A program made the translations under genes and the position numbers. Shown here piece by piece: positions 1-11,751 of a stretch of 11,751 bases of DNA. The notes beneath the pieces were generated by a model, which saw only the letters and a program-made list of their open reading frames with translations, did not search any database and was not told where the DNA came from. Source of the stretch: Anaerolineaceae bacterium (GTDB taxonomy: Bacteria > Chloroflexota > Anaerolineae > Anaerolineales > Anaerolineaceae); NCBI GenBank assembly GCA_028699715.1, contig JAQVUC010000013.1, positions 1 through 11,751 of the forward strand, in the 5' to 3' direction. Position 1 is the first letter of the stretch. Each line of letters opens with the position of its first letter.

Positions 1-1362
1 AGCATTGAGTGCCGGGTAGTCTCTTCGAATTTTGATCAACTCCTTGTAACAATTTAGCAAGGAAGCTGACGAGCTTGATTGATTCTCAACATTCCTTACT
101 TTGTAATCTTTATGGATGTGCAGCCAGGGTTCTCCGGTGGTGAAACCGGAATTGGGTTTTGAATTCCACTGCATTGGAGCCCGGCAACCATCGCGCCCTT
201 TGTTAAATGGCCAATAGTATTTTCCGATTGGATCCTGGATTTGTGAACGAGTCAGGGAGATATCGCGCATGCCAATCTCTTCGCCATAATAGAGGTAGGG
301 GGTCCCTCTCACTGTCAGGTGCATGGCTGCCAGAAGTTTTAGGATGGTGTCGCTCTCGCCTGCAGCAAATCGCGTTGAACTACGGCTGGTGTCGTGGTTG
401 TTGAAAAAGTAGTTTGGCCAGGCTTCTTCGCCATGCAGCGCGTCCCAAAATTGAATCGCTTTGCCAAAAGCTTTGGCGCTTAAGGGGCTATTGGTATAAG
501 CATAATCAAAGCCGGCATGTAAACGATCTGACCCGATGTAGGTGCGAGCCTGAGCGGAATCTGCCAAAAAAGTCTCTCCTACAACATATTTGTCAGGGTA
601 GCTGTCCATGATTTTGCGGATGTCTTGCACAACTTCGATCATCTCTGGTTGAGAGGTGTCGTAAATATGATCATGGGCATCAAATTTCCTGATATTAAAG
701 CCTTTGCGTATGGGGTTATCCCGGAAAAGTTCATCTTTGTAGTAATTATTGAAAACATCCAGCCGAAAACCGTCAACGCCCTTGTCCAACCAATATCGGA
801 AGATATCCAACATCATGGAGCGCACTTCGGGATTGCGCCAATTCAGGTCGGGTTGATGCTTATTGAACATGTGATAGTAGTACTTGCCCAAATTCTCATC
901 AAATTCCCAGGCACTGCCTCCAAAAACCGAGAGCCAATTATTGGGTTTTCGTCCACCTGGCAGAGGATCTTTCCAGATATACCAGTTGTGGTAAGGGCTG
1001 TTGATCGACTTGCGTGATTCCTGGAACCAGCGGTGTTGGTCGGAAGTGTGGTTGAGCACCAGGTCCATAATGATGTGCAGATCGCGTTTGTGAGCTTCCT
1101 TGACAAGACGGTCAAAGTCCTGAAGGTTCCCATGTTTTGGGTCGATCGTATGATAATCAGCCACATCATAGCCGAAATCATGATCGGGCGATGGATAGAT
1201 GGGGGAGAGCCAAATGCCGTCAACTCCCAGCTCTTTTAAATAATCCAAATGTTGGACGATGCCGTTCAAATCCCCGATGCCGTTCCCGGTTGTATCCTGA
1301 AAGGAACGCGGATAGATTTGGTAGATAATTCCATTCTTCCACCATAGTTTATTTTCTGTCAT
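1..1362 (-). CDS. GH13 alpha-glucosidase (oligo-1,6-glucosidase-like), 3' end cut by window edge
   Basis: Reading the minus strand from the ATG at 1362 gives 454 uninterrupted codons to the window edge. It is a (beta/alpha)8-barrel glycoside hydrolase of family 13 that cleaves terminal alpha-glucosidic bonds of oligosaccharides. All family signatures are visible: region I with Asp100, Asn104 and His105 (DLVLNHTS); region V QPDLN at 170-174; region II GFRLDV with the nucleophile Asp202; the general acid Glu263 in VVGET; and NHD at 322-324 with the third catalytic Asp324. There is no signal peptide, so the enzyme should act in the cytoplasm on imported sugars. QPDLN and Val203 directly after the nucleophile are the residues usual in alpha-1,6-acting members (established for isomaltase/oligo-1,6-glucosidase versus maltase). 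The substrate remains a prediction. Family members are about 530-560 residues, so roughly 80-100 C-terminal residues (end of barrel and C domain) lie outside. A GGAGGT ribosome binding site at 1367-1372 (minus strand) supports the start. Confidence 0.93.
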   Translation of the reverse strand, partial: MTENKLWWKNGIIYQIYPRSFQDTTGNGIGDLNGIVQHLDYLKELGVDGIWLSPIYPSPDHDFGYDVADYHTIDPKHGNLQDFDRLVKEAHKRDLHIIMDLVLNHTSDQHRWFQESRKSINSPYHNWYIWKDPLPGGRKPNNWLSVFGGSAWEFDENLGKYYYHMFNKHQPDLNWRNPEVRSMMLDIFRYWLDKGVDGFRLDVFNNYYKDELFRDNPIRKGFNIRKFDAHDHIYDTSQPEMIEVVQDIRKIMDSYPDKYVVGETFLADSAQARTYIGSDRLHAGFDYAYTNSPLSAKAFGKAIQFWDALHGEEAWPNYFFNNHDTSRSSTRFAAGESDTILKLLAAMHLTVRGTPYLYYGEEIGMRDISLTRSQIQDPIGKYYWPFNKGRDGCRAPMQWNSKPNSGFTTGEPWLHIHKDYKVRNVENQSSSSASLLNCYKELIKIRRDYPALNA

Positions 1363-1412
1363 CGTGACCTCCAACGAAGAGATGTGGGTAAGCTGTTTTG
1401 GTTAGTTCTCTT

Positions 1413-1446
1413 ATTTTACTTCATTGAGAAAGAACAACAAGCGCTT
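1413..1446 (-). promoter_or_regulatory. Predicted promoter and palindromic operator of the alpha-glucosidase gene
   Basis: On the minus strand, TTGTTG (1435-1440) and TAAAAT (1413-1418) are separated by 16 nt and lie about 50 nt upstream of the GH13 start. A perfect palindrome AAGCGCTT (1439-1446) overlaps the -35 box. A central CG flanked by AT-rich arms is the general look of LacI/GalR-family operators, which often control sugar-utilisation genes. Operator identity is inference; no regulator gene lies in the window. Confidence 0.35.
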
Positions 1447-1493
1447 AAGGCATTCTACTTATTAATTGCGTCATTTTGCTTGCTCACTTGAAC

Positions 1494-1522
1494 TTGCATT
1501 TGCTTTTTTATTATGGTAATAT
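1494..1522 (+). promoter_or_regulatory. Predicted sigma-70-type promoter of the nusA operon
   Basis: TTGCAT (1494-1499) and TAATAT (1517-1522) are separated by exactly 17 nt. Transcription would start near 1528-1530. That leaves a leader of about 100 nt before nusA, containing the hairpins at 1544-1582. The promoter is divergent from that of the alpha-glucosidase gene. Confidence 0.5.
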
Positions 1523-1543
1523 TTACTCGTTAGTCAGTTCAAT

Positions 1544-1582
1544 ACTTTTCAACCTGAAAAGTGGACAGAGGTCCACTTTTTT
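1544..1582 (+). promoter_or_regulatory. Candidate transcription attenuator in the nusA leader (alternative hairpins plus T-run)
   Basis: Two perfect inverted repeats share one strand. The first pairs ACTTTTCA (1544-1551) with TGAAAAGT (1555-1562). The second pairs AAAAGTGGAC (1557-1566) with GTCCACTTTT (1571-1580), has an AGAG loop, and runs into six T (1577-1582). The second is a textbook intrinsic terminator; forming the first would disrupt it. It lies inside the predicted leader, about 45 nt before the nusA start, so it would stop transcription before the operon unless read through. Premature terminators upstream of rimP/nusA operons are known in other bacteria, and NusA itself affects hairpin pausing and termination, so autogenous control is plausible but inferred. 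The hairpin cannot be the alpha-glucosidase terminator because that gene reads away from it. Confidence 0.6.
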
Positions 1583-1627
1583 GCTTAGAACTGGGAATGC
1601 GTTTTAGTTGGAGAAAGAAAAAAAGCG

Positions 1628-3550
1628 ATGAAAAGCGAATTTACATTAGCCTTTAATGAAGTCCTGGAAGAAAAAGGCTTGCCAAGGGATGTCATCCTGG
1701 CAGCTCTTGAGTCTGCAATGGTTTCCGCCTATCGGAAGGCTGTTGGAGCCTCTACCGCCCAAGACGTTCAGGTAAAGCTTGATTTTGAAAATGGTCAGGT
1801 GAGTGTATTTGCGGAGAAAGAAGTCTCCGAAACCATCACAGATGAGCGAACCGAAGTCTTATTAGAAGAAGCCCTCAAGGTTGATCCGGAATGTCAGATC
1901 GGCGATCTTGTGTTGGTTGAATCTACACCAAAAGATTTTGGTCGTATTGCCGCGCAAACCGCCAGGCAAGCCATCCAACAACGTATTCGCGATGCAGAAA
2001 GACACCGCCAGTTCGAGCATTTCAGCAAGCAAGTTGGCGAGATCACCAACGGTATCGTCCAGGCAGTTAACTCCCGCCAGGCAACCATTGGTCTCGATTT
2101 GAAGGCAGAAGGCACTTTGCTGCGCAAGGAAATGATTCCAAATGAACGTTTCCGCATTCATGACCGGGTCCGGGCTTACATCGTTGAAGTAACTGACTCA
2201 CCCAAGGGCTTACAGATCATCCTGTCACGTGGACATCGCAACTTCCTGCGGCGATTATTGGAAAACGAAGTGCCTGAAATTTATCACGGCATTGTTGAAA
2301 TCCGATCCATTGCCAGGGAGCCAGGTCAACGAGCCAAGGTGGCGGTTTCCGCCACGCAGCAGGGAATTGACCCTGTCGGCGCTTGTGTTGGCCAACGGGG
2401 TGTGCGCATTCAGGCGATCGTGCGTGAATTGCACGATGAGAAAATTGATGTGATCGAATGGAATGCTGACGCTGCTGTATATATCAGCAAGGCAATCAGC
2501 CCGGCACGGGTTTCCGGTGTCTACCTGAACCCTTCGCTTTACGAACACAAGACAGCCACTGTTGTTGTGCCGGAAGACCAACTTAGTCTCGCCATTGGGC
2601 GCGAGGGTCAAAATGCCCGCCTGGCAGCTAAACTGACCGGATGGCGCATTGACATCATGAGTGTCTCTGAAGCTGCAGCCAAGGCTTTAGTCAAACTTCG
2701 CAAGGATCCGACTTTGGCTGAATTGGCAAAAGCAGAAGCCGCGACAATGACCCGTGTGGAAGAGCTGCTGCAAATGAAATCTGAAGGGCGCGTGCTCAGT
2801 ATGGATGACAGCGCGCTGATTGGCCGCTTTGTGGACCGCGTTGAAAGACGTGGTGAAGCTGATCGAAAAGAAGAATTGGATGCTCACATGGCTGAGCTCA
2901 AGGCAGTTCGTGATGGCATCGATCCACGGGCTTATGAGACCAGCATCTATGATGTTGAGCAGATCAAGGAACACATCCAGATCATCCTCCAGGAAAATGG
3001 CGTGGAAACCTTTGGAGATTTGTTCTTTACAGTTCGCACCGATCCTGAAAGCCTGTTGGCCTTCAACGGAATTGGACCAAAGAACTTTGAGGAACTGATT
3101 GACCTCGTAAATACTTACGAATTCCCAGCTGTTGAGGTTGAAGAAGTACCAGAAGCTGTCGCGACGGTTGAAGAAGCGGCGGAAGAGGTTGCTGTTCCGG
3201 AAGAGACAGCTGAAGTTGTTGAACAAGTCGAGGTCGAAGAAGCCGAAGGAACTCTTGAAGAAGAGGAAGAAGAGCAAATTTCTGCTGAAGAAGCAGAAAC
3301 TTCCGAAGGAAAAGATAAAGAAGAGGAAGCTTCAGAAGAGAAGAGCTTTGAAGAACTCTTCCGTTTAGACACGATCAAAAGAGAAAAAACGACTCCGGAA
3401 GAAGATGAAGAATATCAGCGCATGATGGCGGATAAAAAGAAAAAAGGCAAAAAACGTCGCGGCTTTACTGTTGAGTATGATCCTGAACAGGATACCGATG
3501 TGGTTCGTTACAAACACCGCAAAGCCGAAGATGATTGGGAAGACTGGTAA
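1628..3550 (+). CDS. nusA: Transcription termination/antitermination factor NusA, extended C-terminus
   Basis: NusA binds RNA polymerase and nascent RNA in the cytoplasm and modulates pausing, termination and rRNA antitermination. Domains in order: N-terminal RNAP-binding domain (about 1-125), S1 domain (about 134-200), KH1 with a GQRG loop at 255-258, and KH2 with GREG at 324-327 followed by the typical QNARLA. After about residue 350 comes a helical linker, then a helix-hairpin-helix-like segment at about 460-495 (FNGIGPKN). Next is an acidic Glu/Val/Ala-rich stretch (about 501-590), a basic patch at 603-611, and a tail ending in DDWEDW. At 640 residues it is much longer than the roughly 350-400 residue Firmicutes proteins and lacks an obvious second AR repeat. 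GGAGA at 1610-1614 is a rather distant ribosome binding site (13 nt). It is the first gene of the cluster; rimP is not upstream in this window. Confidence 0.97.
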   Translation: MKSEFTLAFNEVLEEKGLPRDVILAALESAMVSAYRKAVGASTAQDVQVKLDFENGQVSVFAEKEVSETITDERTEVLLEEALKVDPECQIGDLVLVESTPKDFGRIAAQTARQAIQQRIRDAERHRQFEHFSKQVGEITNGIVQAVNSRQATIGLDLKAEGTLLRKEMIPNERFRIHDRVRAYIVEVTDSPKGLQIILSRGHRNFLRRLLENEVPEIYHGIVEIRSIAREPGQRAKVAVSATQQGIDPVGACVGQRGVRIQAIVRELHDEKIDVIEWNADAAVYISKAISPARVSGVYLNPSLYEHKTATVVVPEDQLSLAIGREGQNARLAAKLTGWRIDIMSVSEAAAKALVKLRKDPTLAELAKAEAATMTRVEELLQMKSEGRVLSMDDSALIGRFVDRVERRGEADRKEELDAHMAELKAVRDGIDPRAYETSIYDVEQIKEHIQIILQENGVETFGDLFFTVRTDPESLLAFNGIGPKNFEELIDLVNTYEFPAVEVEEVPEAVATVEEAAEEVAVPEETAEVVEQVEVEEAEGTLEEEEEEQISAEEAETSEGKDKEEEASEEKSFEELFRLDTIKREKTTPEEDEEYQRMMADKKKKGKKRRGFTVEYDPEQDTDVVRYKHRKAEDDWEDW

Positions 3551-3608
3551 GATTCAGGTACAGTCAAGATTGAGATTAAGCGCTTTTTTAGAGAAAGCAT
3601 AGAAGAAG

Positions 3609-3956
3609 GTGGCAGCAAAAAACAAATTAAAACCCAAACACATTCCTCAACGCACCTGTGTGGGGTGTCGCGAGGTCCTTCCCAAGCGGAATTTGATCCG
3701 ACTGGTGAGGACAACGGAAGGTGTAAAGATTGACCTGAGCGGCAAGCTGCCGGGTCGTGGTGCTTATTTGCACGACCAAAAGAGCTGCTGGGTTAAAGGG
3801 TTAAAAGGATCTTTAGCAAAGGCTTTACGGACTACGGTTTCGGAGCAGGATTTGGCCACACTGCATGCTTATATGGAAGGTTTGCCAGAGGATACGCGAG
3901 AAAGCGAGACCTCCCAGGATTCAGATCTCCCTGATAAGGACAGCGTGATGGCTTAA
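3609..3956 (+). CDS. rnpM: RNase P modulator RnpM (YlxR family)
   Basis: This small RNA-binding protein belongs to the YlxR/DUF448 family, whose Bacillus member was shown to bind RNase P RNA and modulate its activity. The family signatures are present: PQRTCVGCR at 13-21, the K-R-N-L-I-R-L-V-R segment at 26-34, GRGAYLH at 49-55, and Cys60-Trp61 followed by Lys-rich helix residues. The core ends near residue 88. The remaining 27 residues are a Ser/Asp/Glu-rich tail that most family members (about 90 residues) lack. The start is GTG; the only purine-rich sequence ahead, AGAAGAAG, abuts it, so translation may depend on coupling to nusA, 58 nt upstream. The usual neighbour ylxQ (L7Ae-like) is missing between this gene and infB. 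Confidence 0.9.
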   Translation: MAAKNKLKPKHIPQRTCVGCREVLPKRNLIRLVRTTEGVKIDLSGKLPGRGAYLHDQKSCWVKGLKGSLAKALRTTVSEQDLATLHAYMEGLPEDTRESETSQDSDLPDKDSVMA

Positions 3957-4002
3957 TTGTCAGCCTGACAACTTGCTTTTAGATACCGTTGCCGCCAGGC
4001 AA
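3957..4002 (+). promoter_or_regulatory. Two inverted repeats in the rnpM-infB spacer
   Basis: The 78-nt spacer starts with the perfect palindrome TTGTCAG-C-CTGACAA (3957-3971), directly after the rnpM stop. A second short repeat TTGCC-GCCA-GGCAA follows (3989-4002). CTTGC at 3972-3976 could also pair with GCAAG at 3999-4003, so the folds compete. There is no T-run, so this is not an intrinsic terminator. It may be an RNA processing site or a leader structure controlling infB translation; the role is unknown. Confidence 0.3.
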
Positions 4003-4034
4003 GGGGGTTGCTGTAATAGAATACGGAGGTATCT

Positions 4035-5819
4035 ATGGGCAAAAAAGAAAATACAATCATTCAACTACCATACAGCATTACCGTGCGGGAACTGGCAGGT
4101 TTGCTGGATAACAGTGCGGTTCAGGTCATCAAAATTTTGATGTCCAATGGCGTCATGGCCAGCATCAATCAGACAATTGACTTTGATACAGCTGCAGTTG
4201 TGGCGACAGAATTGGGTTTTGAACCCCAATTGGAGCAGGAAGAAGTCAAAGAAGAAGAAACCGGCGAAATGCCGCTTTGGCGCCGTGTAATTCTGGAAGA
4301 GGATCCAGACAAGCTTACAGCCCGCCCTCCAGTTATTACCATTCTGGGACATGTTGACCACGGAAAGACGACTTTGTTGGATGCCATCCGCAACACAGAC
4401 GTGGCAGGTGGGGAAGTTGGCGGCATTACGCAGCACATCGGTGCCTACCAAATCACTCATAAAGATCGACTGGTCACCTTCCTGGACACTCCGGGTCATG
4501 CCGCTTTCTCATCCATGCGCGCTCGAGGCGCTCAAGGGGCTGACATCGTCGTGCTGGTAGTTGCGGCGGATGATGGCGTTCAGCCTCAAACCCGTGAAGC
4601 CGCAAACCATGCCAAAGCTGCCCAGGTGCCGATCATCGTCGCTCTGAACAAAATTGACAAGACTGATGCCAATCTGGACCGGGTAAAACGACAGTTATCT
4701 GAAATTGGATTGCAACCAGATGAATGGGAAGGTGACACTTTTGTCATGCCTGTTTCAGCCAAGGGTCGCATCGGTTTGGAAGATTTGTTGGAAACCATCC
4801 TTTTGGTGGCGGACAATGTCACCATCAAGGCAAACCCCAAAGGTCAGTGTATTGGTACAGTGGTGGAAGCCCGGCTTGATAAAGCCCGCGGTCCATTGGC
4901 AACCTTGTTGGTGCAAAACGGCACACTCAAGGTGGGCGATGTGGTGGTGGCTGGTGAAGGCACTGGCAAAATCAAAGCCATGTTTGATCAGCGCAATAAA
5001 CGTGTTTCAAAAGCAGCTCCTTCCACACCAGTTGTGGTCATGGGCTTGAGCGTTTTACCCGAAGCCGGAGACCTGTTCCAGGTTGTTGAAAACGAAAAAG
5101 AAGGGCGTTCGATCGTCTCAAACCGCAAAGCGGAACGTGAGGCAAAACGCAGTGTAAAACGCGCCACGCTGGAAGAACTGTTCAGTCGCTTTAAATCTGG
5201 ACAAGCTAAAGAATTGCGCCTGATCCTGAAGGCTGACGTCCAGGGTTCACTTGAACCAATCACAAATGAGATGGAAAAGATCAGCAAACAGCAAAAAGAC
5301 CTGTCCATCAAAGTTTTGCATGCTGAAACTGGCAACATCACCGAAAGTGACATCATGCTGGCGGCAGCCTCAGACGCGGTTGTAATGGGCTTTGATGTTG
5401 ATGCGGATCAGGCTGTGCGAAGATTGGCAGACACCGAAGGTGTTTCAGTTCGTCTTTACAACATTATTTACCGCCTGGTGGAAGATGTTGAAAAGGCTCT
5501 GAACGGTTTGCTCGAACCTGAATTAGTGGAACGTGTGATAGGCAAGGCCGCCGTATTGGCAACCTTCAAAGTTTCCAAGGGTGGTACAGCAGCAGGCTGC
5601 CGTATTCTGACTGGTGAATTTCGTAGGAATGCTTCTGTTAGAATCCTGCGTGATGGAGAAGAAATTGCCAAGACAGAAGTGTCTTCTCTGAGACGCGAAA
5701 AGGAAGACGTGCGTGAGGTTCGCGAAGGTATGGAATGCGGGATCACGTTGAAGAACTACGAAGAATTCGAAGTTGGTGATGTATTTGAATGTTTTGTGGT
5801 AGAGAAATTTGGGGGCTGA
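4035..5819 (+). CDS. infB: Translation initiation factor IF-2
   Basis: IF-2 is the GTPase that delivers formyl-methionyl-tRNA to the 30S subunit and promotes subunit joining. The protein opens with a single IF2_N-type helical module (about 6-60, [10 protein letters not shown]...), a short acidic linker (about 63-90), then the G domain. The G domain has G1 GHVDHGKT at 105-112, G2 around Thr132 (GGITQHIG), G3 DTPGH at 151-155, G4 NKID at 205-208 and G5 SAK at 241-243. Domains II to IV follow, including the conserved [10 protein letters not shown] at about 398-407 and the C-terminal fMet-tRNA-binding domain (about 500-590). At 594 residues it is a short form without the long repetitive N-terminus of enterobacterial IF-2. 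GGAGGT at 4025-4030, 4 nt before ATG, fixes the start. A TAG directly follows the TGA stop. Confidence 0.98.
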
Positions 5820-5843
5820 TAGCACCCAGGTACAGGAGGAGAT

Positions 5844-6290
5844 ATGCCTTCGAAGTTAAGGATGAAAAGAATCAATGACAGAATGAAAGAAATTCTGTCA
5901 ATGGTATTGTTAGCAAAAATTGAAGACCCTCGCTTGCTGGGTGTTTCCGTGACCGATGTCAAGGTCGACAGGGAACTCGATTATGCCAATATCTACGTCT
6001 CAGCGCTTGAGGGTCAGGAGCGGTCTCAGGAAGTCATTGAGGCGCTGAACCACGCCAGAAAATTCCTGCGCTATGAGATTTCCCAGGAAATAGACCTACG
6101 CGTCACCCCAAAATTACGCTTCTTCTGGGATCCTACGCCTGAAAAAGCGGCCAGGATCGATTTGTTATTGGCTGAATGGCAGAACGAAGAACATCCGGTT
6201 TTCGATGACGATGCAGAGGAAGACCTGGGCGACTATGGAGATGAGGTCGAAGAAGACGATTTTTATGACGAGGATGAAGAAGAAGTATGA
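5844..6290 (+). CDS. rbfA: 30S ribosome-binding factor RbfA with acidic C-terminal tail
   Basis: RbfA is a KH-fold factor that binds the immature 30S subunit near helix 1 of 16S rRNA and helps late maturation. The core (about 1-112) shows the family pattern: basic N-terminus with KRINDRMKEIL, EDPRLLGVSVTDVKV at 27-41, YANIYVS at 47-53, the helix ALNHARKFLRYEIS at 67-80, and LRVTPKLRFFWD at 85-96. Residues 121-148 form a strongly acidic tail, with 19 of 28 residues Asp or Glu; typical RbfA proteins are about 115-130 residues. AGGAGG at 5834-5839, 4 nt ahead of ATG, is an excellent ribosome binding site. Its last bases overlap the start of the next gene (ATGA), pointing to translational coupling. 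Confidence 0.96.
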   Translation: MPSKLRMKRINDRMKEILSMVLLAKIEDPRLLGVSVTDVKVDRELDYANIYVSALEGQERSQEVIEALNHARKFLRYEISQEIDLRVTPKLRFFWDPTPEKAARIDLLLAEWQNEEHPVFDDDAEEDLGDYGDEVEEDDFYDEDEEEV

Positions 6291-7249
6291 GTGAAGTGTT
6301 TGACGTCGATAATTTGATCAAAGAACAATTGAGCCAGGCCAGGCGGGTTGTGCTTGTTTCACACATCCGACCGGATGGCGATGCTGTTGGAAGCATGTTA
6401 GCTTTTGGAACCGCGCTCAAAGAAGCCGGCAAAGATGTGCAATGCGTGCTTGAAGATGGGGTCGCAGAACGATATCATTCCCTGCCTGGTGCCACTGATG
6501 TGTCCAATAAGATTTCACTTGATTTCGACTATTTAATTGTTGTCGATTGCGCCGATGCTCCCCGGGTGGGTAGTGTCCTCAAGGATGTTTCGGCTCCGGA
6601 TTTGGTAGTGGATCATCACAAAACACACATTAACTTTGGCAAAATCGATTATGTGGAACCCGAAGCAGAGGCTACGGCGCTTATGCTGGCTGAGACATTG
6701 CCAAAATGGGGTTTGAAAGTGAGCCCCGGTGTGGCAGCCGCTTTGCTAACCGGTTTGTTGGCTGACACCTTGGGTTTTAGGACAAACAACACCACACCAA
6801 AAGCTTTAAGAATAGCCGCAGATTTGATGGAAAGCGGTGCTGATTTGGTCAATGTTTACCACAACACGCTTTCAATGCGCAGCCTGGCTGAAATTCGTTA
6901 CTGGGGCCAGGGTTTAACAAAATTGGAGTTCAACGATGGTCTCTTATCCTCCACGCTCACGCTTGAGGATAGAGAAATTGCTGGTTATCCTGAAAATGAC
7001 GATGCAGATTTGATCAATATGTTGACTGTCGTACCCGAGGCTCTGATTTCGGTCTTGTTTATTGAGCAAGAAAACGATAGTATTAAGGTAAGCTGGCGTT
7101 CCGTTAAAGGAATTGATGTTTCAAACATCGCCACTATGTTCGGCGGGGGAGGGCATGAATCCGCTGCTGGTGCTGATATACCAGGCAGCCTGGATCAGGT
7201 CAAAAATCGAGTTTTGGAAGTTACTCAGAACATTTTAAAAGGGGAATGA
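6287..7249 (+). CDS. nrnA: DHH/DHHA1 phosphoesterase, NrnA-type nanoRNase/pAp phosphatase
   Basis: NrnA-type enzymes degrade 2-5-nt RNA oligomers and dephosphorylate 3'-phosphoadenosine 5'-phosphate using two Mn(II) ions. Metal-binding motifs of the DHH domain are complete: His26, Asp30 and Asp32 in HIRPDGDAVGS; Asp87 in VVDCAD; the DHH triad at 109-111; and Asp160 in GLLADT. The C-terminal DHHA1 substrate-binding domain carries FGGGGHESAAG at 285-295. At 320 residues it matches the family's usual length. It overlaps rbfA by 4 nt (ATGA) and sits immediately ahead of truB, an arrangement shared with many nusA/infB clusters. Related subfamilies (c-di-AMP phosphodiesterase GdpP, RecJ) carry extra domains not present here. 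The exact preference for nanoRNA, pAp or linear dinucleotides cannot be read from sequence. Confidence 0.92.
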   Translation: MSEVFDVDNLIKEQLSQARRVVLVSHIRPDGDAVGSMLAFGTALKEAGKDVQCVLEDGVAERYHSLPGATDVSNKISLDFDYLIVVDCADAPRVGSVLKDVSAPDLVVDHHKTHINFGKIDYVEPEAEATALMLAETLPKWGLKVSPGVAAALLTGLLADTLGFRTNNTTPKALRIAADLMESGADLVNVYHNTLSMRSLAEIRYWGQGLTKLEFNDGLLSSTLTLEDREIAGYPENDDADLINMLTVVPEALISVLFIEQENDSIKVSWRSVKGIDVSNIATMFGGGGHESAAGADIPGSLDQVKNRVLEVTQNILKGE

Positions 7250-7260
7250 ATAGAGGAAAA

Positions 7261-8184
7261 ATGAACGAACGAGATGAACTCAAACGAAAATTTGTAAACA
7301 AAGTTTCCGGTGTTTTGGTTGTGGATAAACCAATCGGAATGACCTCCCATGATGTTGTTCAATTCATTCGCAGAGGTACCCACATTAACCGGGCAGGACA
7401 TACCGGAACACTTGACCCGAGGGCTTCTGGTGTTTTGGTGGTGCTTGTTGGACCTGCAGTACGCTTAAGCGAGTTCGTGGCTGCCTCTGAAAAGCGATAT
7501 CAGGCTGTAATCAAATTTGGTATGACAACCACCACTTACGATTTGGAAGGCGAAGTCACCGCTGTCAGACCGGTTGATATCAGTTTTGAAGAACTGGAAG
7601 AAGCACTCAAAGGTTTTGTTGGTGAGAGCGAGCAGGTACCCCCGGTCTTTTCCGCCTTGAAGATCAACGGCAAAAAGGCTTACGAATTGGCCCGTGAGGG
7701 CAAAGAAGTTGAGATGGAACCTCGTACGATCGTTGTGCACGACCTTGAGCTTTTGGATTGGGACCCACCCGAAGCGGTGGTCGATATCCATTGTTCTTCT
7801 GGCACATACGTGCGCTCTTTGGCTTCAGATCTGGGCGAAAAACTTGGCTCCGGAGCAACTTTGATTGGGTTGCGACGCACCAAGAACGGGCAGTTTGGAT
7901 TGCGCGACGCAGTTTCACTCCGCCGCCTGGAAGAAGCTTTTCAAAATAACGATTGGTACAAATTTTTGATTCCAGCTGCAGAGGTCCTGGGAGATTGGTA
8001 TACAATCAAACTTAGTTTCGAGCAAGTTGACGAGGTAGTCCATGGTCACCGCATCCCTGGCGAAGAAGGGTTGGAAGATAAAATGCTGGCCCGGGCCATC
8101 AGTGCGGATGGAGAACTGATCGCCTTGATGGAATATGATGCTGAAAAATCAGAATGGCAACCCCGCAAGGTTTTTGGCAACTAA
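7261..8184 (+). CDS. truB: tRNA pseudouridine(55) synthase TruB
   Basis: TruB isomerises U55 in the T-loop of tRNAs to pseudouridine and acts as a tRNA chaperone. From the ATG at 7261 the protein is 307 residues. The opening GVLVVDKPIGMTSHDVV and the catalytic loop GHTGTLDP (catalytic Asp52) are diagnostic. Further family blocks are KRYQAVIKFGMTTTTYDLEG, QVPPVFSALKINGKKAYELA and CSSGTYVRSLASDLG, followed by a C-terminal RNA-binding extension of TruB-C type. An in-frame ATG at 7246 overlaps the nrnA stop by 4 nt and would add five residues (MNRGK). I prefer 7261 because GAGG (7253-7256) lies 4 nt ahead, the spacing used elsewhere in this cluster, whereas the 7246 codon has GGGG only 1 nt away. 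Either start leaves the catalytic core unchanged. A terminator hairpin follows. Confidence 0.96.
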   Translation: MNERDELKRKFVNKVSGVLVVDKPIGMTSHDVVQFIRRGTHINRAGHTGTLDPRASGVLVVLVGPAVRLSEFVAASEKRYQAVIKFGMTTTTYDLEGEVTAVRPVDISFEELEEALKGFVGESEQVPPVFSALKINGKKAYELAREGKEVEMEPRTIVVHDLELLDWDPPEAVVDIHCSSGTYVRSLASDLGEKLGSGATLIGLRRTKNGQFGLRDAVSLRRLEEAFQNNDWYKFLIPAAEVLGDWYTIKLSFEQVDEVVHGHRIPGEEGLEDKMLARAISADGELIALMEYDAEKSEWQPRKVFGN

Positions 8185-8203
8185 AAAGATTTGCATACGT
8201 GAA

Positions 8204-8236
8204 CCCCGCCTGACAATGCTCAGACGGGGTATTTTT
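8204..8236 (+). terminator. Intrinsic terminator after truB
   Basis: CCCCGCCTGA (8204-8213) pairs with TCAGACGGGG (8220-8229) with one C/A mismatch and a 6-nt loop. TATTTTT (8230-8236) follows. It most likely ends the nusA-truB transcript. Its T-run lies only 17 nt before the ribF start, so it could also act as a leader attenuator for ribF. Confidence 0.8.
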
Positions 8237-8253
8237 AAGACAGGAAAAGACTT

Positions 8254-9183
8254 GTGACTAAAGAATATCAGGACTGGCCAGATCATACGCTTGAGCCTGC
8301 GTGGGCAACTATCGGTAATTTTGACGGTGTGCATTTGGGCCATCAGGCATTGATCAACAGAGTAATCAACCGGGCTAAAAATGATGGTGTTCAGTCTTTG
8401 GTCGTGACTTTTTGGCCTCATCCGCGTGTATTTTTCACAAAAACTGTTGAGGGTTACTACCTTAATAATCAAAAAGAAAAGCGCGATTTGCTCGCCGCCA
8501 GCGGGGTAGACACGGTTTTGTGCCTGCCCTTTGACCAGAGTTTGGCAGATATGAACACCAAAGAATTTATAGCAAAGCTGAACTCCATTGTGCCGCTAAA
8601 AGGGCTGATCGTAGGTGAAAGTTTTGCTCTGGGCAAAGATCGTTCGGGAACAGGGGAAGTGCTGCAGAAAGTTTGTGATGATTTTGGGATTGAGTGCGTT
8701 CATATATCTCCTGAATTGTTTGACGGCCAGGTGATTTCATCCCAACGTATCCGTCAGGCTCTTGACAGCGGTAATGTTAAGTTGGTAGCCAGCCTGCTTG
8801 GGCGAAGCTTCACGCTTTCCGGTTATGTCGCGCCAGGACGGCAGGAAGGCACCAAGCTTGGTTTCCCAACCGCCAATTTATATTTTGACAGCCACCGTAA
8901 ATTACCGCGTTTTGGCGTTTATGCCTGCCTGGTGGATTTGGATGGCAAGTTTTACAAGGGAGTAACCAATGTTGGCATCAGACCAACTTTTGATGACGGC
9001 CTTTCACCCAGCATTGAGACTCTTCTGTTGGATTTTGATGATAATATCTATTACAAATTGATCCACGTTCACTTCATCGAAAATATCCGTGATGAAGTCA
9101 AATTCAAGTCAATTGCTGATCTGGTTGAACAGATCAACATCGATAAAACGAATGCCCGGAGGATATTGACAGATGGAACATAA
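8254..9183 (+). CDS. ribF: Bifunctional riboflavin kinase / FMN adenylyltransferase RibF
   Basis: RibF phosphorylates riboflavin to FMN and adenylates FMN to FAD in the cytoplasm. The N-terminal nucleotidyltransferase part shows GNFDGVHLGHQ with the HxGH signature at 27-30, PHP at 55-57, and ISSQRIR at 161-167 in place of the usual SSTxIR. The C-terminal flavokinase domain shows KLGFPTANL at 201-209, NVGIRPTF at 239-246 and the likely catalytic base Glu255. At 309 residues it is full length. The motif normally written as G-x-D-F-x-F-G reads GESFALG at 121-127, a mild departure. The GTG start is preceded by AGGA at 8242-8245. The gene lies just downstream of a terminator with no room for a promoter between, so it needs readthrough or a promoter inside truB. 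No FMN riboswitch was recognised. Its end overlaps the next gene by 11 nt. Confidence 0.95.
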   Translation: MTKEYQDWPDHTLEPAWATIGNFDGVHLGHQALINRVINRAKNDGVQSLVVTFWPHPRVFFTKTVEGYYLNNQKEKRDLLAASGVDTVLCLPFDQSLADMNTKEFIAKLNSIVPLKGLIVGESFALGKDRSGTGEVLQKVCDDFGIECVHISPELFDGQVISSQRIRQALDSGNVKLVASLLGRSFTLSGYVAPGRQEGTKLGFPTANLYFDSHRKLPRFGVYACLVDLDGKFYKGVTNVGIRPTFDDGLSPSIETLLLDFDDNIYYKLIHVHFIENIRDEVKFKSIADLVEQINIDKTNARRILTDGT

Positions 9184-10609
9184 ACGCAGAATTTACCGAT
9201 TAAGTGCTCGCAGCCTTGGTGCGGAAACAATCGCAGTCACTTTCGCCAAAACCTCAAGATCCCCCGAAGCTTTTGACAAGATCGCGGCTGAGCTTGACGA
9301 CGAGAAAAGCACCGAGTTTAGTGAAAAATGGATTGTAGGTTACGGTCACAGCAGTGTGGCCGAACATGCCGTGCTGCATCTGGCAATTGAAAACGTCTCC
9401 CGGTTGGCGATCGAGACGATAGAAGGCAACCGTTTGGCTTCTTATACTGAAAAATCAACCCGCTATCAGCAGTGGGACCCAACCGCTTTTGTGATCCCTC
9501 CGGAAATTCAATATAGCCCCTTCGCAAAAAGCTACCAGGAAAGCATCAGCAGGCTTTTTGAGACCTACGCGGAAATCCTGGAAGGTCTGATGCCTTGGGG
9601 GCAGGCTCAAACGGAACGAAAAGAAAATGAGTCCGAAAGAGCCTGGTTGAATCGTTCCCGACTGAAAGCGGTGGATGTGGCTCGTTTTGTTTTGCCGGCG
9701 GCGTCAATGGCAAATGTAGGTTTGACCATTAATGCGCGCGCTTTGGAATACGCTATTCGCAAAATGCTCTCCTCAGAGTTAATGGAAGTGCGCTTGATCG
9801 GTGAAGAAATGAAGCGGGTGGCAACACAAGAGCTGCCCACCCTGGTCAAATACGCTGATCCAATCGGCTATTTGCCCGAGGTCAGCCGTTATTCACATGA
9901 ACTGGCGGAAGAAATCCCCTTTAGCCAGGAACAACCCTTTCAACTGGTGTCAATTGACCCGGATGGTGAGAATAAGATCTTGGCAGCCGTGCTATACCGT
10001 TATGGTAGTGGAAGTTACCAATCCTGTCTGGCAAAAGTCAAGGCGATGGGTTTGCCAGCCAGGCAAGAATTGGTCGATAAACTCTTTGAAAATGTGGGTA
10101 AATTCGACATCCCCTTGCGTGAATTAGAGTATGCCACTGCCACTTTTGATCTGGTTATGGATCAGGGCGCATATTTTGAATTCAAACGTCACCGGATGAT
10201 GACCCAAACCGTGCAGGTTTTCAACATTCAACATGGCTATGCAATTCCATTGGCGATCACCGAAGCCGGGTTGGAACCAGTTTACAGGGCAAGCATGGAT
10301 GAAATGGCGGCTCTTTATGGGCAGTTCGCTGAGTGGAATCCCCAGGTTGCGGCTTATGTTTTACCGAACGCTTTCAACCGCCGGGTGTTATGTGAATCAA
10401 ATTTGCGCTCGCTTTTCCATTTCATCAAATTACGCAGCGCGAGCAACGCGCATTTCTCCATTCGCAGGGTCGCATTCAGCTTGTTGGAACTGCTGCGTCC
10501 GCATTACCCACTTTTTTCTCAAAAAATCCTGTGTTCCTCTGAGTTGAGCAGTCAGATGATTGAATCAGACTTCTTTTCGACTGTCGCACAAGAGGTGGCA
10601 TCAAAATAA
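9173..10609 (+). CDS. Tandem (double-domain) ThyX-like protein, FAD-dependent thymidylate synthase family
   Basis: ThyX makes dTMP from dUMP with methylene-tetrahydrofolate and FAD, usually as a tetramer of about 220-250-residue chains. This 478-residue protein is about twice that and contains two ThyX-like halves. The N-half (about 1-235) has GHSSVAEH at 58-65. Its signature RHRx7S reads GNRx7S, with Gly85-Asn86-Arg87 in place of RHR but Ser95 and Arg97 kept. It also has a late NAR (187-189) helix. The C-half (about 245-478) keeps RHR at 339-341, but the Ser position is Val349, and the EH of GHxSxxEH reads Glu319-Tyr320. It keeps NLRSLFHFIKLR (410-421) and SIRR (429-432), typical of the ThyX C-terminal helix. 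A composite active site is possible but unproven; it could also have another flavin- or uridylate-related role. GGAGG at 9158-9162 supports the start, and the overlap with ribF suggests coupling to FAD synthesis. Confidence 0.85.
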   Translation: MEHKRRIYRLSARSLGAETIAVTFAKTSRSPEAFDKIAAELDDEKSTEFSEKWIVGYGHSSVAEHAVLHLAIENVSRLAIETIEGNRLASYTEKSTRYQQWDPTAFVIPPEIQYSPFAKSYQESISRLFETYAEILEGLMPWGQAQTERKENESERAWLNRSRLKAVDVARFVLPAASMANVGLTINARALEYAIRKMLSSELMEVRLIGEEMKRVATQELPTLVKYADPIGYLPEVSRYSHELAEEIPFSQEQPFQLVSIDPDGENKILAAVLYRYGSGSYQSCLAKVKAMGLPARQELVDKLFENVGKFDIPLRELEYATATFDLVMDQGAYFEFKRHRMMTQTVQVFNIQHGYAIPLAITEAGLEPVYRASMDEMAALYGQFAEWNPQVAAYVLPNAFNRRVLCESNLRSLFHFIKLRSASNAHFSIRRVAFSLLELLRPHYPLFSQKILCSSELSSQMIESDFFSTVAQEVASK

Positions 10610-10631
10610 GCAAGAGATTTTTTGGAAAGAG

Positions 10632-10666
10632 TATAATGACCAAAACCGAATTATCAATTGAGAGGT
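10632..10666 (+). promoter_or_regulatory. Predicted -10 box and ribosome binding site of the small lipoprotein gene
   Basis: A consensus TATAAT lies at 10632-10637, 22 nt after the thyX-like stop codon, but no good -35 hexamer is found at 16-18 nt spacing. AGAGGT (10661-10666) sits 4 nt before the ATG. There is no terminator between the thyX-like gene and this site, so readthrough transcription is also possible. Confidence 0.4.
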
Positions 10667-10670
10667 AAAC

Positions 10671-11120
10671 ATGAAAAAAAGATCGATCCTGGTTATTAGT
10701 CTAATCCTCATCGCAAGCGTAATTTTAAGCGCTTGTGGGAGCACTGAACCGACTGATGAAAATGTGACAATCAATATGCCGATCGTTGATGTGGGCAGCA
10801 AGGAAACGGAAGAATCTCCCACCCCTCAAACTGAACCCGCCGAGGTGGTGGATACCTACCCGATCAATGAAGCCCCTGCGGTTCCGGATGATAGCCCGAT
10901 GAATACGTATCCTATCGATTCAAGCGCTCTTGACTATGATGAACAAATGGAGGCATATGTACTGGAGCTTTTGGATGGTAAACATGAACTGCAATTCTTG
11001 TTTGACCAGGATCTAAGCGCGGAGCAATGGCGTGAAATTCTCATGAACAGCAATCACAATCACATCGTTCTTTCAGAGGGTGAACTGACTGCTGTAATCG
11101 AGTGGTTGATTTCTAAGTAA
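10671..11120 (+). CDS. Small predicted lipoprotein of unknown function
   Basis: The 149-residue protein begins with a lipoprotein signal peptide: MKKR, a hydrophobic stretch at 6-19, and the lipobox LSAC at 19-22. It should be cleaved before Cys22, lipid-anchored, and face the outside. Residues 23-85 are an acidic, Pro/Thr/Ser-rich and probably disordered linker with a small repeat, TYPIN at 62-66 and TYPID at 79-83. Residues about 86-149 look like a compact alpha-helical domain (EQMEAYVLELL, SAEQWREILMN, SEGELTAVIEWLIS) separated by a NHNH segment. I do not recognise the family. The S-x-E-x-W...L-S-x-x-E-L helix pair loosely recalls cytochrome-like tails, but there is no CxxCH haem motif. 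It has its own -10 box and a strong terminator, so it is probably a separate transcription unit. Confidence 0.8.
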   Translation: MKKRSILVISLILIASVILSACGSTEPTDENVTINMPIVDVGSKETEESPTPQTEPAEVVDTYPINEAPAVPDDSPMNTYPIDSSALDYDEQMEAYVLELLDGKHELQFLFDQDLSAEQWREILMNSNHNHIVLSEGELTAVIEWLISK

Positions 11121-11140
11121 TTTCTCACCTCAAACCCAGA

Positions 11141-11172
11141 AGACATCCTCAGTGTGAAGGGTGTCTTTTTTT
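11141..11172 (+). terminator. Intrinsic terminator after the small lipoprotein gene
   Basis: AGACATCCT (11141-11149) pairs with AGGGTGTCT (11158-11166), nine pairs including one G/T, with an 8-nt loop. Seven T follow (11166-11172). It lies 20 nt after the stop codon. Confidence 0.88.
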
Positions 11173-11419
11173 ATTAAGAGACAATACTTTAAAACTGAAT
11201 TTTCAACGCTATCCTCCTATTCTGTCATAAGAAAGGGTTAATCAAGGCAAAAAAGGAAATATCCTACTCAAGAACATCGAATGTTTTTCTATTCAGTTTA
11301 TTTGAGAGTTTCCACGGCATTATTTTATTGCATGCGTTGAACGATGGCTACATTCAAACATATTTTGTATTCAAGTTTTTCTTGCCTAATTCCGATTGGC
11401 CATTTCGATTGTGATAATT
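11173..11419. other. AT-rich intergenic stretch without recognisable gene
   Basis: I see no convincing coding region, RNA gene or repeat here. A short AT-rich inverted repeat at 11271-11287 ends in Ts but is too weak to call a terminator. Together with the leader that follows, it makes up the longest non-coding stretch in the window. Confidence 0.5.
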
Positions 11420-11448
11420 TTCATTAAAGTACGTAAGCATAGTACAAT
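11420..11448 (+). promoter_or_regulatory. Tentative promoter of the second lipoprotein gene
   Basis: TACAAT (11443-11448) is a good -10 box; the matching -35 position, 17 nt away, reads TTCATT (11420-11425), only half consensus. Transcription would start near 11455, giving a leader of about 135 nt that begins just before the hairpins at 11465-11566. Confidence 0.35.
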
Positions 11449-11464
11449 AAAACTGTTTCTTCGA

Positions 11465-11583
11465 CTTGCGGTACCTAAATTACATAAACAAGGTACTGTG
11501 AGCGGTAGCAGGTGGAAAATCCCAGTTACCATCTGTTCGAGGGTGTTGCCGGAAACAGCAGCGCCTCCCATTTTGGAAAGGAG
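11465..11583 (+). ncRNA. Candidate structured 5' leader (cis-regulatory RNA) of the second lipoprotein gene
   Basis: Three consecutive hairpins can be drawn by hand. P1 is 12 pairs (three G/T) between 11465-11476 and 11491-11502, with a 14-nt loop. P2 joins GGTAGC (11504-11509) to GTTACC (11525-11530) with an inner TGG/CCA stem. P3 joins GGTGTTGC (11542-11549) to GCAGCGCC (11558-11565) with an 8-nt loop. Right after P3, CTCC (11565-11568) can pair with GGAG of the ribosome binding site (11580-11583). CTGTT (11533-11537) can instead pair with AACAG (11554-11558), which would break P3. I recognise no known riboswitch class. The regulatory role is inference from position and structure. Confidence 0.4.
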
Positions 11584-11589
11584 AAGGAA

Positions 11590-11751
11590 GTGAAGCACGT
11601 ATTTAAGAGTTTCTTTTTTGTTTTATTATTGGGGGTAATGATCAGTCTAACTGGTTGCGCGACACCAATTGTTGAAGCCCCACCAGAGACAGTCGTTGAT
11701 GTACCAGCTGAGCAGCCAAGTGAAAGTGAAGCCGAACCAGAGATTCCGGTT
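11590..11751 (+). CDS. N-terminus of a predicted lipoprotein, cut by right window edge
   Basis: An open frame of 54 codons starts at GTG 11590 and runs off the window. It begins with a lipoprotein signal peptide: Lys2/Lys6, a hydrophobic stretch at about 8-20, and the lipobox LTGC with Cys23 as the lipidated residue. The mature part seen so far is a Pro/Glu/Val-rich linker like that of the lipoprotein upstream, so the functional domain lies outside the window and no function can be given. AGGAG at 11579-11583, 6 nt before GTG, supports the start. The gene is preceded by a long leader that can fold into three hairpins. Confidence 0.75.
   Translation, partial: MKHVFKSFFFVLLLGVMISLTGCATPIVEAPPETVVDVPAEQPSESEAEPEIPV

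Follow-up and report, generated by a model that had tools for sequence, protein, structure and literature searches.

A double-length ThyX from an Anaerolineaceae bacterium whose two halves probably divide the roles of the thymidylate synthase active site

The active site of the flavin-dependent thymidylate synthase ThyX is assembled from more than one chain. In the enzyme from M. tuberculosis, the cofactor flavin adenine dinucleotide (FAD) is held by the RHR motif of subunit A together with S71 and R190 of subunit B, while the contacts to deoxyuridine monophosphate (dUMP) come from R95 and R199 of A and from R87, S105 and R107 of subunit C, whose Y108 forms a lid (PMC6514825). The nucleotide of PolB is described as bound by F79, R82, H83, R86 and R193 of one monomer and by E94', S96', A97', R98' and R166' of another (PMC5003785), an inhibitor of PBCV-1 ThyX is flanked by Q75 and R182 from monomer A and S88 from monomer B (PMC3498832), and H53 of T. 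maritima ThyX is supplied by a third monomer (PMC11940539). As to the chemistry, R174 activates dUMP, and S88 and Y91 assist the methylene transfer (PMC8316439). According to Valas and Bourne in 2009, the fully sequenced Chloroflexi, except Dehalococcoides, carry a domain-duplicated ThyX, which was then uncharacterised (PMC3224940). Here we analyse a tandem thyX gene of this kind on a stretch of 11,751 nucleotides (the window), positions 1 to 11,751 of the forward strand of contig JAQVUC010000013.1 (assembly GCA_028699715.1) from an Anaerolineaceae bacterium.

From sequence comparison, we consider it highly likely that the encoded protein is a functional, and probably the sole, flavin-dependent thymidylate synthase that arose when two ThyX subunits were fused by an old duplication; the halves would then have specialised, giving two composite and two dead sites per dimer. 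The tandem protein would thus very probably still make thymidine monophosphate (dTMP). That fused halves pair into complete sites, by a duplication followed by subfunctionalisation, had been proposed in an earlier reading of the gene (the original prediction). The proposal is supported by the lost residue sets, which match subunit roles, by the persistence of the split in 449 of 450 aligned rows, and by domain trees, in which halves group by kind, N with N and C with C. Its premise that known ThyX sites are built from several chains agrees with the solved structures, which show three subunits per site (PMC6514825, PMC5003785, PMC3498832, PMC11940539).

The gene and its two domains are laid out as follows:
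9173..10609, plus strand: tandem thyX, an open reading frame of 478 amino acids with two Thy1 stretches and an AlphaFold2 single-chain model.
9173..9868, plus strand: N-half ThyX domain (residues 1-232), with the putative dUMP-loop and GHxS roles.
9926..10552, plus strand: C-half ThyX domain (residues 252-460), with the putative RHR/R174 role.

The reading frame starts with ATG and is intact. PF02511 (Thy1) matches the protein in two stretches (185.4 bits, cut-off 24.8), and the TIGR02170 (thyX) profile scores 96.6 bits against a cut-off of 87.9. The AlphaFold2 model of the single chain has a predicted local distance difference test score (pLDDT) of 91.6 and a predicted template modelling score of 0.89, and in it the ThyX fold is found in the N-half and the C-half alike, each matching solved ThyX chains. 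Profile score and fold therefore both place the protein in the Thy1/ThyX superfamily, but it has two domains where canonical ThyX has one ThyX domain per chain. A BLASTP comparison of the N-half with the C-half gave no meaningful match, which is compatible with an old duplication. An assembly or frameshift artefact was ruled out by the intact frame and by relatives that share its length and arrangement, found at 72 loci from other assemblies and including full-length ones 73-79% identical to the window protein.

Subunit roles are given below in T. maritima ThyX numbering. The T. maritima sequence used was verified at 219 of 220 residues, and we converted the published residue numbers to T. maritima numbering ourselves, using alignment and constant offsets. 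The register of the two halves was taken from helix and strand offsets in the AlphaFold2 model, which are 254 around RHR and 223 from around R147 to R174. In the following list, single counts refer to a panel of 182 sequences, and series of four to that panel, a divergent set of 28 rows, and groups 2 and 3 of 120 rows each, all defined further below.
9344..9367, plus strand: GHSSVAEH (58-65), kept in the N-half; H59, E64 and H65 in 182/182, S61 in 181/182.
9425..9433, plus strand: GNR (85-87), the degenerate RHR of the N-half; residue 85 is S in 78, G in 75, A in 25 and N in 4 of 182, and never R; N86 in 182/182.
9449..9466, plus strand: EKSTRY (93-98), the kept dUMP loop of the N-half (T. maritima E86, S88, R90, Y91); E93, S95, R97 and Y98 in 182/182.
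9683..9685, plus strand: R171, the kept R147 equivalent of the N-half; 182/182, 28/28, 119/120, 120/120.
9731..9766, plus strand: N187-M198, the N-half helix with the lost R174 equivalent (M198, in the register of the model); M in 150 and L in 32 of 182, the adjoining K197 invariant.
10118..10120, plus strand: R316, a new and nearly invariant Arg at or near the C-half GHxS position; 182/182, 26/28, 120/120, 120/120.
10187..10195, plus strand: RHR (339-341), the kept FAD/dUMP motif of the C-half; 182/182, 28/28, 120/120, 120/120.
10211..10228, plus strand: VQVFNI (347-352), the degenerate dUMP loop of the C-half; 347, 349, 351 and 352 variable, S349 together with R351 in 0/450 rows.
10352..10354, plus strand: A394, the lost R147 equivalent of the C-half (register from the strand and helix offsets of the model); A in 108, S in 65, G in 8 and Q in 1 of 182.
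10400..10435, plus strand: NLRSLFHFIKLR (410-421), the kept C-half helix with R421 (T. maritima R174); N410, R412 and R421 in 182/182.

The RHRx7S motif, which we take to be the ThyX signature, is intact in neither half, the N-half reading GNR...S95 and the C-half RHR...V349. Every residue named in the original prediction is found where it had been placed (GHSSVAEH 58-65, GNR 85-87, S95, R97, E319-Y320, RHR 339-341, V349 and N410...R421), and its description of a tandem ThyX-like protein with complementary signature losses is confirmed by the two Thy1 stretches and by further complementary losses in both halves. Namely, the N-half has in addition lost the R174 equivalent (M198), and in the C-half the equivalents of E86, R90, Y91 and R147 are V347, N351, I352 and A394, with the His and Ser of GHxS also lost. 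Y395 was considered as the R147 equivalent of the C-half, but the helix and strand offsets of the model point to A394 instead, and the recount left the conclusion unchanged. The weakest of the predicted differences is Glu319-Tyr320 in place of the EH of GHxSxxEH: it is present, with E319 in 182/182, but at residue 320 there are 159 Tyr, 15 His and 8 Phe among the 182.

Set against the solved structures, these patterns fall along subunit lines. Judged by its residues, the C-half keeps role A and the N-half roles B and C, and no position of known role contradicts this in the window's panel; with the halves assigned in this way, the set of dUMP and FAD ligand residues is complete. The C-half would act as subunit A, its RHR holding the phosphates and the flavin of FAD and its R174 equivalent activating dUMP, while the N-half would take both the dUMP-loop role (E86, S88, R90, Y91, R147) and that of the third subunit (GHxS with H53). 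Because the residue sets lie on different subunits in the crystal structures, and because GHxS is in the N-half, a dimer would amount to a pseudo-tetramer in which two FAD/dUMP sites are composite and complete and the other two dead. This count closes consistently, since such a pseudo-tetramer has two N-halves and two C-halves, with role A in a C-half and roles B and C in two different N-halves.

In the proposed mechanism, the RHR of a C-half would bind FAD, whose tail would be gripped by an N-half on its GHxS side. A second N-half would bind dUMP through its E93-S95-R97-Y98 loop and R171, and R421 of the C-half would activate this dUMP. The folate would enter beside H59, and the chemistry would be that of ordinary ThyX, with one FAD and one dUMP per chain of 478 amino acids. 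We infer the dimeric pseudo-tetramer, its geometry, its stoichiometry and its activity from these comparisons.

The original prediction called for alignment of the double-length homologues, and the split proved to be conserved among them. Five dUMP-binding residues (R78 and R174; S88, R90 and R147) were scored in the four sets. R78 and R174 in the C-half occur together with S88, R90 and R147 in the N-half in 182/182, 28/28, 119/120 and 120/120 rows, that is, 449/450, whereas the reversed arrangement, all five in the N-half, or all five in the C-half are each found in 0/450. The exceptional row is P0227, which lacks the N-half R147 equivalent; another, P0208, has R at the C-half R147 position. 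It is important to point out that the 450 rows are not independent events, since they are related, and that they represent slightly fewer than 450 proteins, because two of them recur (L127 is P0122 and L130 is P0242).

In the 182-sequence panel, the N-half keeps H53, E86, S88, R90, Y91, R147 and R165 (182/182) and the Ser of GHxS (181/182), and lacks R78 (S, G, A or N instead), H79 (N86 in 182/182) and R174 (M or L). The C-half keeps R78, H79, R80, R165 and R174, all in 182/182, and lacks H53, E86, R147 and the S88/R90/Y91 set, with a lone S349 in 10 and a lone R351 in 2 of the 182. R80 and R165 are kept by both halves, and all other losses are complementary. At the position of M. tuberculosis R87 of subunit C, the N-half has R77 and the C-half Q331, both in 182/182. 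The mean entropy at the live-site positions is 0.01, 0.37, 0.01 and 0.11 bits in the four sets, against 1.05, 2.11, 1.17 and 0.82 at the matching dead-site positions and 1.37, 2.07, 1.15 and 0.99 over the whole protein; the dead-site positions are thus about as variable as the whole protein, while those of the live site are nearly invariant.

The sets were composed as follows. For the panel, P0071 (317 amino acids) was left out, and 12 of the remaining 194 sequences were dropped as identical, shorter than 440 amino acids or copies of the window (L001/L002); the window itself is included, and cluster P0002 (99% identical), being the window's own protein, was not used. The set of 28 goes back to 30 genomes chosen by hand across Chloroflexota families from those with two Thy1 matches, of which G133 gave no match; L133 (131 amino acids, genome G092) and L134 (the same gene as L121) were dropped. 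Group 2 comprises the best 120 relatives of the divergent query L127, and group 3 the best 120 of L130, with names that include Ardenticatena and Acidobacteriota. Searches with three tandem queries (E <= 1e-5) returned at least 6,402, at least 8,000 and at least 7,750 proteins; the sets overlap and count matches, not tandem proteins, and it is on these figures, with the best 120 of each listed, that we call tandem ThyX common. Among the matches listed, the source names are mostly FAD-dependent thymidylate synthase or thymidylate synthase ThyX, with few hypothetical proteins. A scan of viral contigs with the window protein as single query gave no relative. In group 3, P0242 and 41 relatives have invariant cysteines near the C-terminus (C489, C501 and C508), perhaps a metal site; the model of P0242 is of moderate quality (pLDDT 76.2). 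Two tandem relatives of 701 and 723 amino acids, P0277 and P0286, have an extra Pfam domain, PF14890.

The supply of dTMP was examined in 121 genomes of the order, 120 drawn at a completeness of at least 90% plus the window's own genome. Users of ThyX often lack dihydrofolate reductase (DHFR). A Thy1 match is found in 74 of the 121 genomes, and 67 of the 74 have two or more matches and are called tandem genomes here (those of G382 are on separate contigs); the remaining seven, with a single match each, are G380, G386, G323, G335, G351, G356 and G389. ThyA (PF00303) occurs in 1/67 tandem genomes against 41/47 genomes without a Thy1 match, and DHFR (PF00186) over the cut-off in 0/67 against 42/47 (Fisher p 2e-23 and 5e-26, kinship uncorrected), tandem genome G381 having a DHFR match below threshold. 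The 41 ThyA matches include a short one with two internal stops (G317) and a partial one (G303), and the 42 DHFR matches a partial one with one internal stop (G352). Both kinds of genome occur within single families: in f79, G314, G337, G342, G347, G357 and G361 are tandem, G326, G332 and G352 have ThyA and DHFR, and G302 has neither; in f85, G320 and G329 are tandem and G308 has ThyA and DHFR. Such a phyletic swap is what a working dTMP synthase that spares DHFR would show. Judged by gene content, tandem ThyX takes the place of ThyA within the order and makes DHFR dispensable; across the phylum, the pattern is looser.

In one genus of the window's own family (G168, G378, G386), no ThyA, DHFR or tandem ThyX match was found; G386 has only a partial Thy1-like reading frame of 171 amino acids (contig C3, L135:2126-3210), which adjoins a dCTP deaminase reading frame. 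In two genomes of the order, a separate frame outside the tandem gene gives a further weak Thy1 match, the third in each (G040:C13, L138, 319 amino acids; G088:C7, 316 amino acids), and the tandem ThyX profile gave no match on L138.

Several points weigh against the composite-site enzyme. That the kept residues would face one pocket is judged by homology to solved ThyX. The loss of R174 from the N-half depends on the register, since a gapped alignment places K197, which is invariant in the panel and R in many relatives, on R174, in disagreement with the helix positions of the model, which are the sole means by which the register was settled. In the more distant relatives, H53 is D or E in 10/28 rows of the divergent set, group 2 does not retain the M. 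tuberculosis R87 equivalent, and group 3 has Q for E86 and no R165 in either half. As to the genomes, the tandem genome G329 has a divergent ThyA-like match at residues 186-368 of a 458-residue reading frame (L137:409-1785, minus strand), and in a phylum sample of 301 genomes at least four with two Thy1 matches (G071, G087, G225, G260) have weak, partial PF00303 matches of 49-56 bits. The match in G225 contains an internal stop, and these four matches may belong to another ThyA-like family. A hidden ThyA in the window's own genome was rejected on the basis of 0 matches, an absence that is weak by itself as the genome is 73% complete.

The original prediction had also offered another outcome, namely a protein that no longer makes dTMP and works on a different uridylate or flavin substrate; a UMP methylase of the PolB kind would be one example. 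The signature is indeed broken within each half, and PolB shows that a relative of ThyX can take UMP (PMC5003785). However, with the halves read together, the scored dUMP contacts are kept in all rows but one, and 66/67 tandem genomes of the order lack ThyA and 67/67 lack DHFR over the cut-off, which means that no other known de novo dTMP route was seen in them. Families f79 and f85, moreover, hold both kinds of genome as if one enzyme had replaced the other. With ThyA in 1/67 and DHFR in 0/67, this alternative is unsupported, and we consider it very unlikely. Neutral decay, in which one half is a structural partner and only the other catalytic, would account for the far greater variability of dead-site than of live-site positions (1.05 against 0.01 bits of mean entropy over the 182 rows), but the complete five-residue set is found in neither half in any of the 450 rows, and a ThyX site therefore cannot come from one kind of half alone. 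As the kept residues are also distributed over both halves and nearly invariant, a decay of this sort is extremely improbable.

The composite site itself is compatible with more than one history. A domain tree was built from 105 domains (40 N-halves, 40 C-halves and 25 single domains) after 28 of 133 rows had been thinned out; from a second tree without the site columns, S_L136 was also dropped. With all columns, the 40 C-halves fall on one side of a branch (support 96) and 33 of the 40 N-halves form one clade (99), but the other seven, from group 3 (the Ardenticatena/Acidobacteriota type), lie among single-domain ThyX. This placement, together with the different degenerate motif of group 3 (H-S/A-H), would fit several independent fusions, each followed by the same split. 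On the other hand, when the site columns are removed, all 40 N-halves (73, not strong) and all 40 C-halves (95) each lie on one side of a branch, and in every set a given role stays with the same half. The simpler history is a single old duplication, with which the clade structure is consistent; independent fusions strike us as doubtful, and they would alter the history and not the mechanism, so that their odds do not compete with those of the composite-site enzyme. L116 branches off first in the main clade of N-halves and also in that of C-halves, and its N-half keeps QHR, among the mildest decays seen; it may stand close to the first steps of the split.

In the two dead sites, RHR is lost on one side and the dUMP loop on the other. 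The RHR equivalent of the group 2 N-half begins with D-E (120/120), which would be expected to repel the FAD phosphates. One can speculate that the dead sites have become regulatory or structural ligand sites, making this ThyX an allosteric two-site enzyme, for which the forskolin-binding degenerate site of mammalian adenylyl cyclase is a precedent (PMC8815786). Such a ligand site should be marked by the residues that are predicted to lie around the vacated FAD pocket and are invariant in the panel, that is, N86, R87 and K197 of the N-half and R316 and R412 of the C-half, and the D-E of group 2 perhaps faces R316. We regard such a reuse as unlikely.

Directly upstream of the tandem gene lies one further feature of the window:
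8254..9183, plus strand: ribF (riboflavin kinase/FAD synthetase), FAD_syn 141.8 bits, Flavokinase 129.6 bits.
Its 3' end overlaps the start of thyX by 11 nucleotides. ribF is found directly upstream of the tandem gene in 58/64 loci with sufficient upstream DNA, eight further loci being too short, and the overlap is the same 11 nucleotides in 44/58 (extrapolated from alignments). Upstream of ribF, window positions 1628-8184 hold an ordinary cluster of nusA, ylxR, infB, rbfA, a DHH/DHHA1 protein gene and truB.

ThyX is a drug target under study, and the spread of its active site over three identical subunits makes the part of each hard to tell. In tandem ThyX the roles are separated, residues of different roles lying in different halves of one gene, where each could be mutated on its own, and a dead site in the same particle would serve as a reference. 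Tandem ThyX would thus represent a natural half-site ThyX and a clean case of subfunctionalisation after fusion. It also calls for caution in annotation, since neither half alone has a full ThyX site and the protein is nevertheless very likely active.

Tandem ThyX belongs to the Thy1 superfamily and is not a canonical homotetrameric ThyX; its duplication has been known since 2009, while the split is apparently undescribed in the open-access literature. In searches of that literature, no account of a complementary split in tandem, fused or duplicated ThyX was found, and the only relevant paper among the entries listed is that of Valas and Bourne, whose passages on the Chloroflexi protein are silent on active-site residues or a split (PMC3224940). 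Thermus thermophilus ThyX (PDB 6j61) has, according to the title of the entry, an extra C-terminal domain, but unlike the window protein its deposited chain, of 270 residues, is too short for two ThyX domains. Alike in design is the mammalian membrane adenylyl cyclase, a C1a/C2a pseudo-heterodimer in which one chain carries two homologous domains with one live and one degenerate pseudosymmetric site (PMC8815786); protein and chemistry are unrelated, however, and its dead site is a known regulatory (forskolin) site. With the canonical homotetrameric enzymes (T. maritima TM0449, M. tuberculosis, PBCV-1 and PolB), both halves share the fold and, when read together, the ligand residues, and the tandem genomes of the order resemble those of canonical ThyX users in lacking DHFR over the cut-off and, nearly all, ThyA. 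In contrast to these enzymes, the window protein has two non-identical domains per chain, each without the residues of one or two subunit roles and neither with an intact RHRx7S, and it is predicted to form two rather than four sites per four domains.

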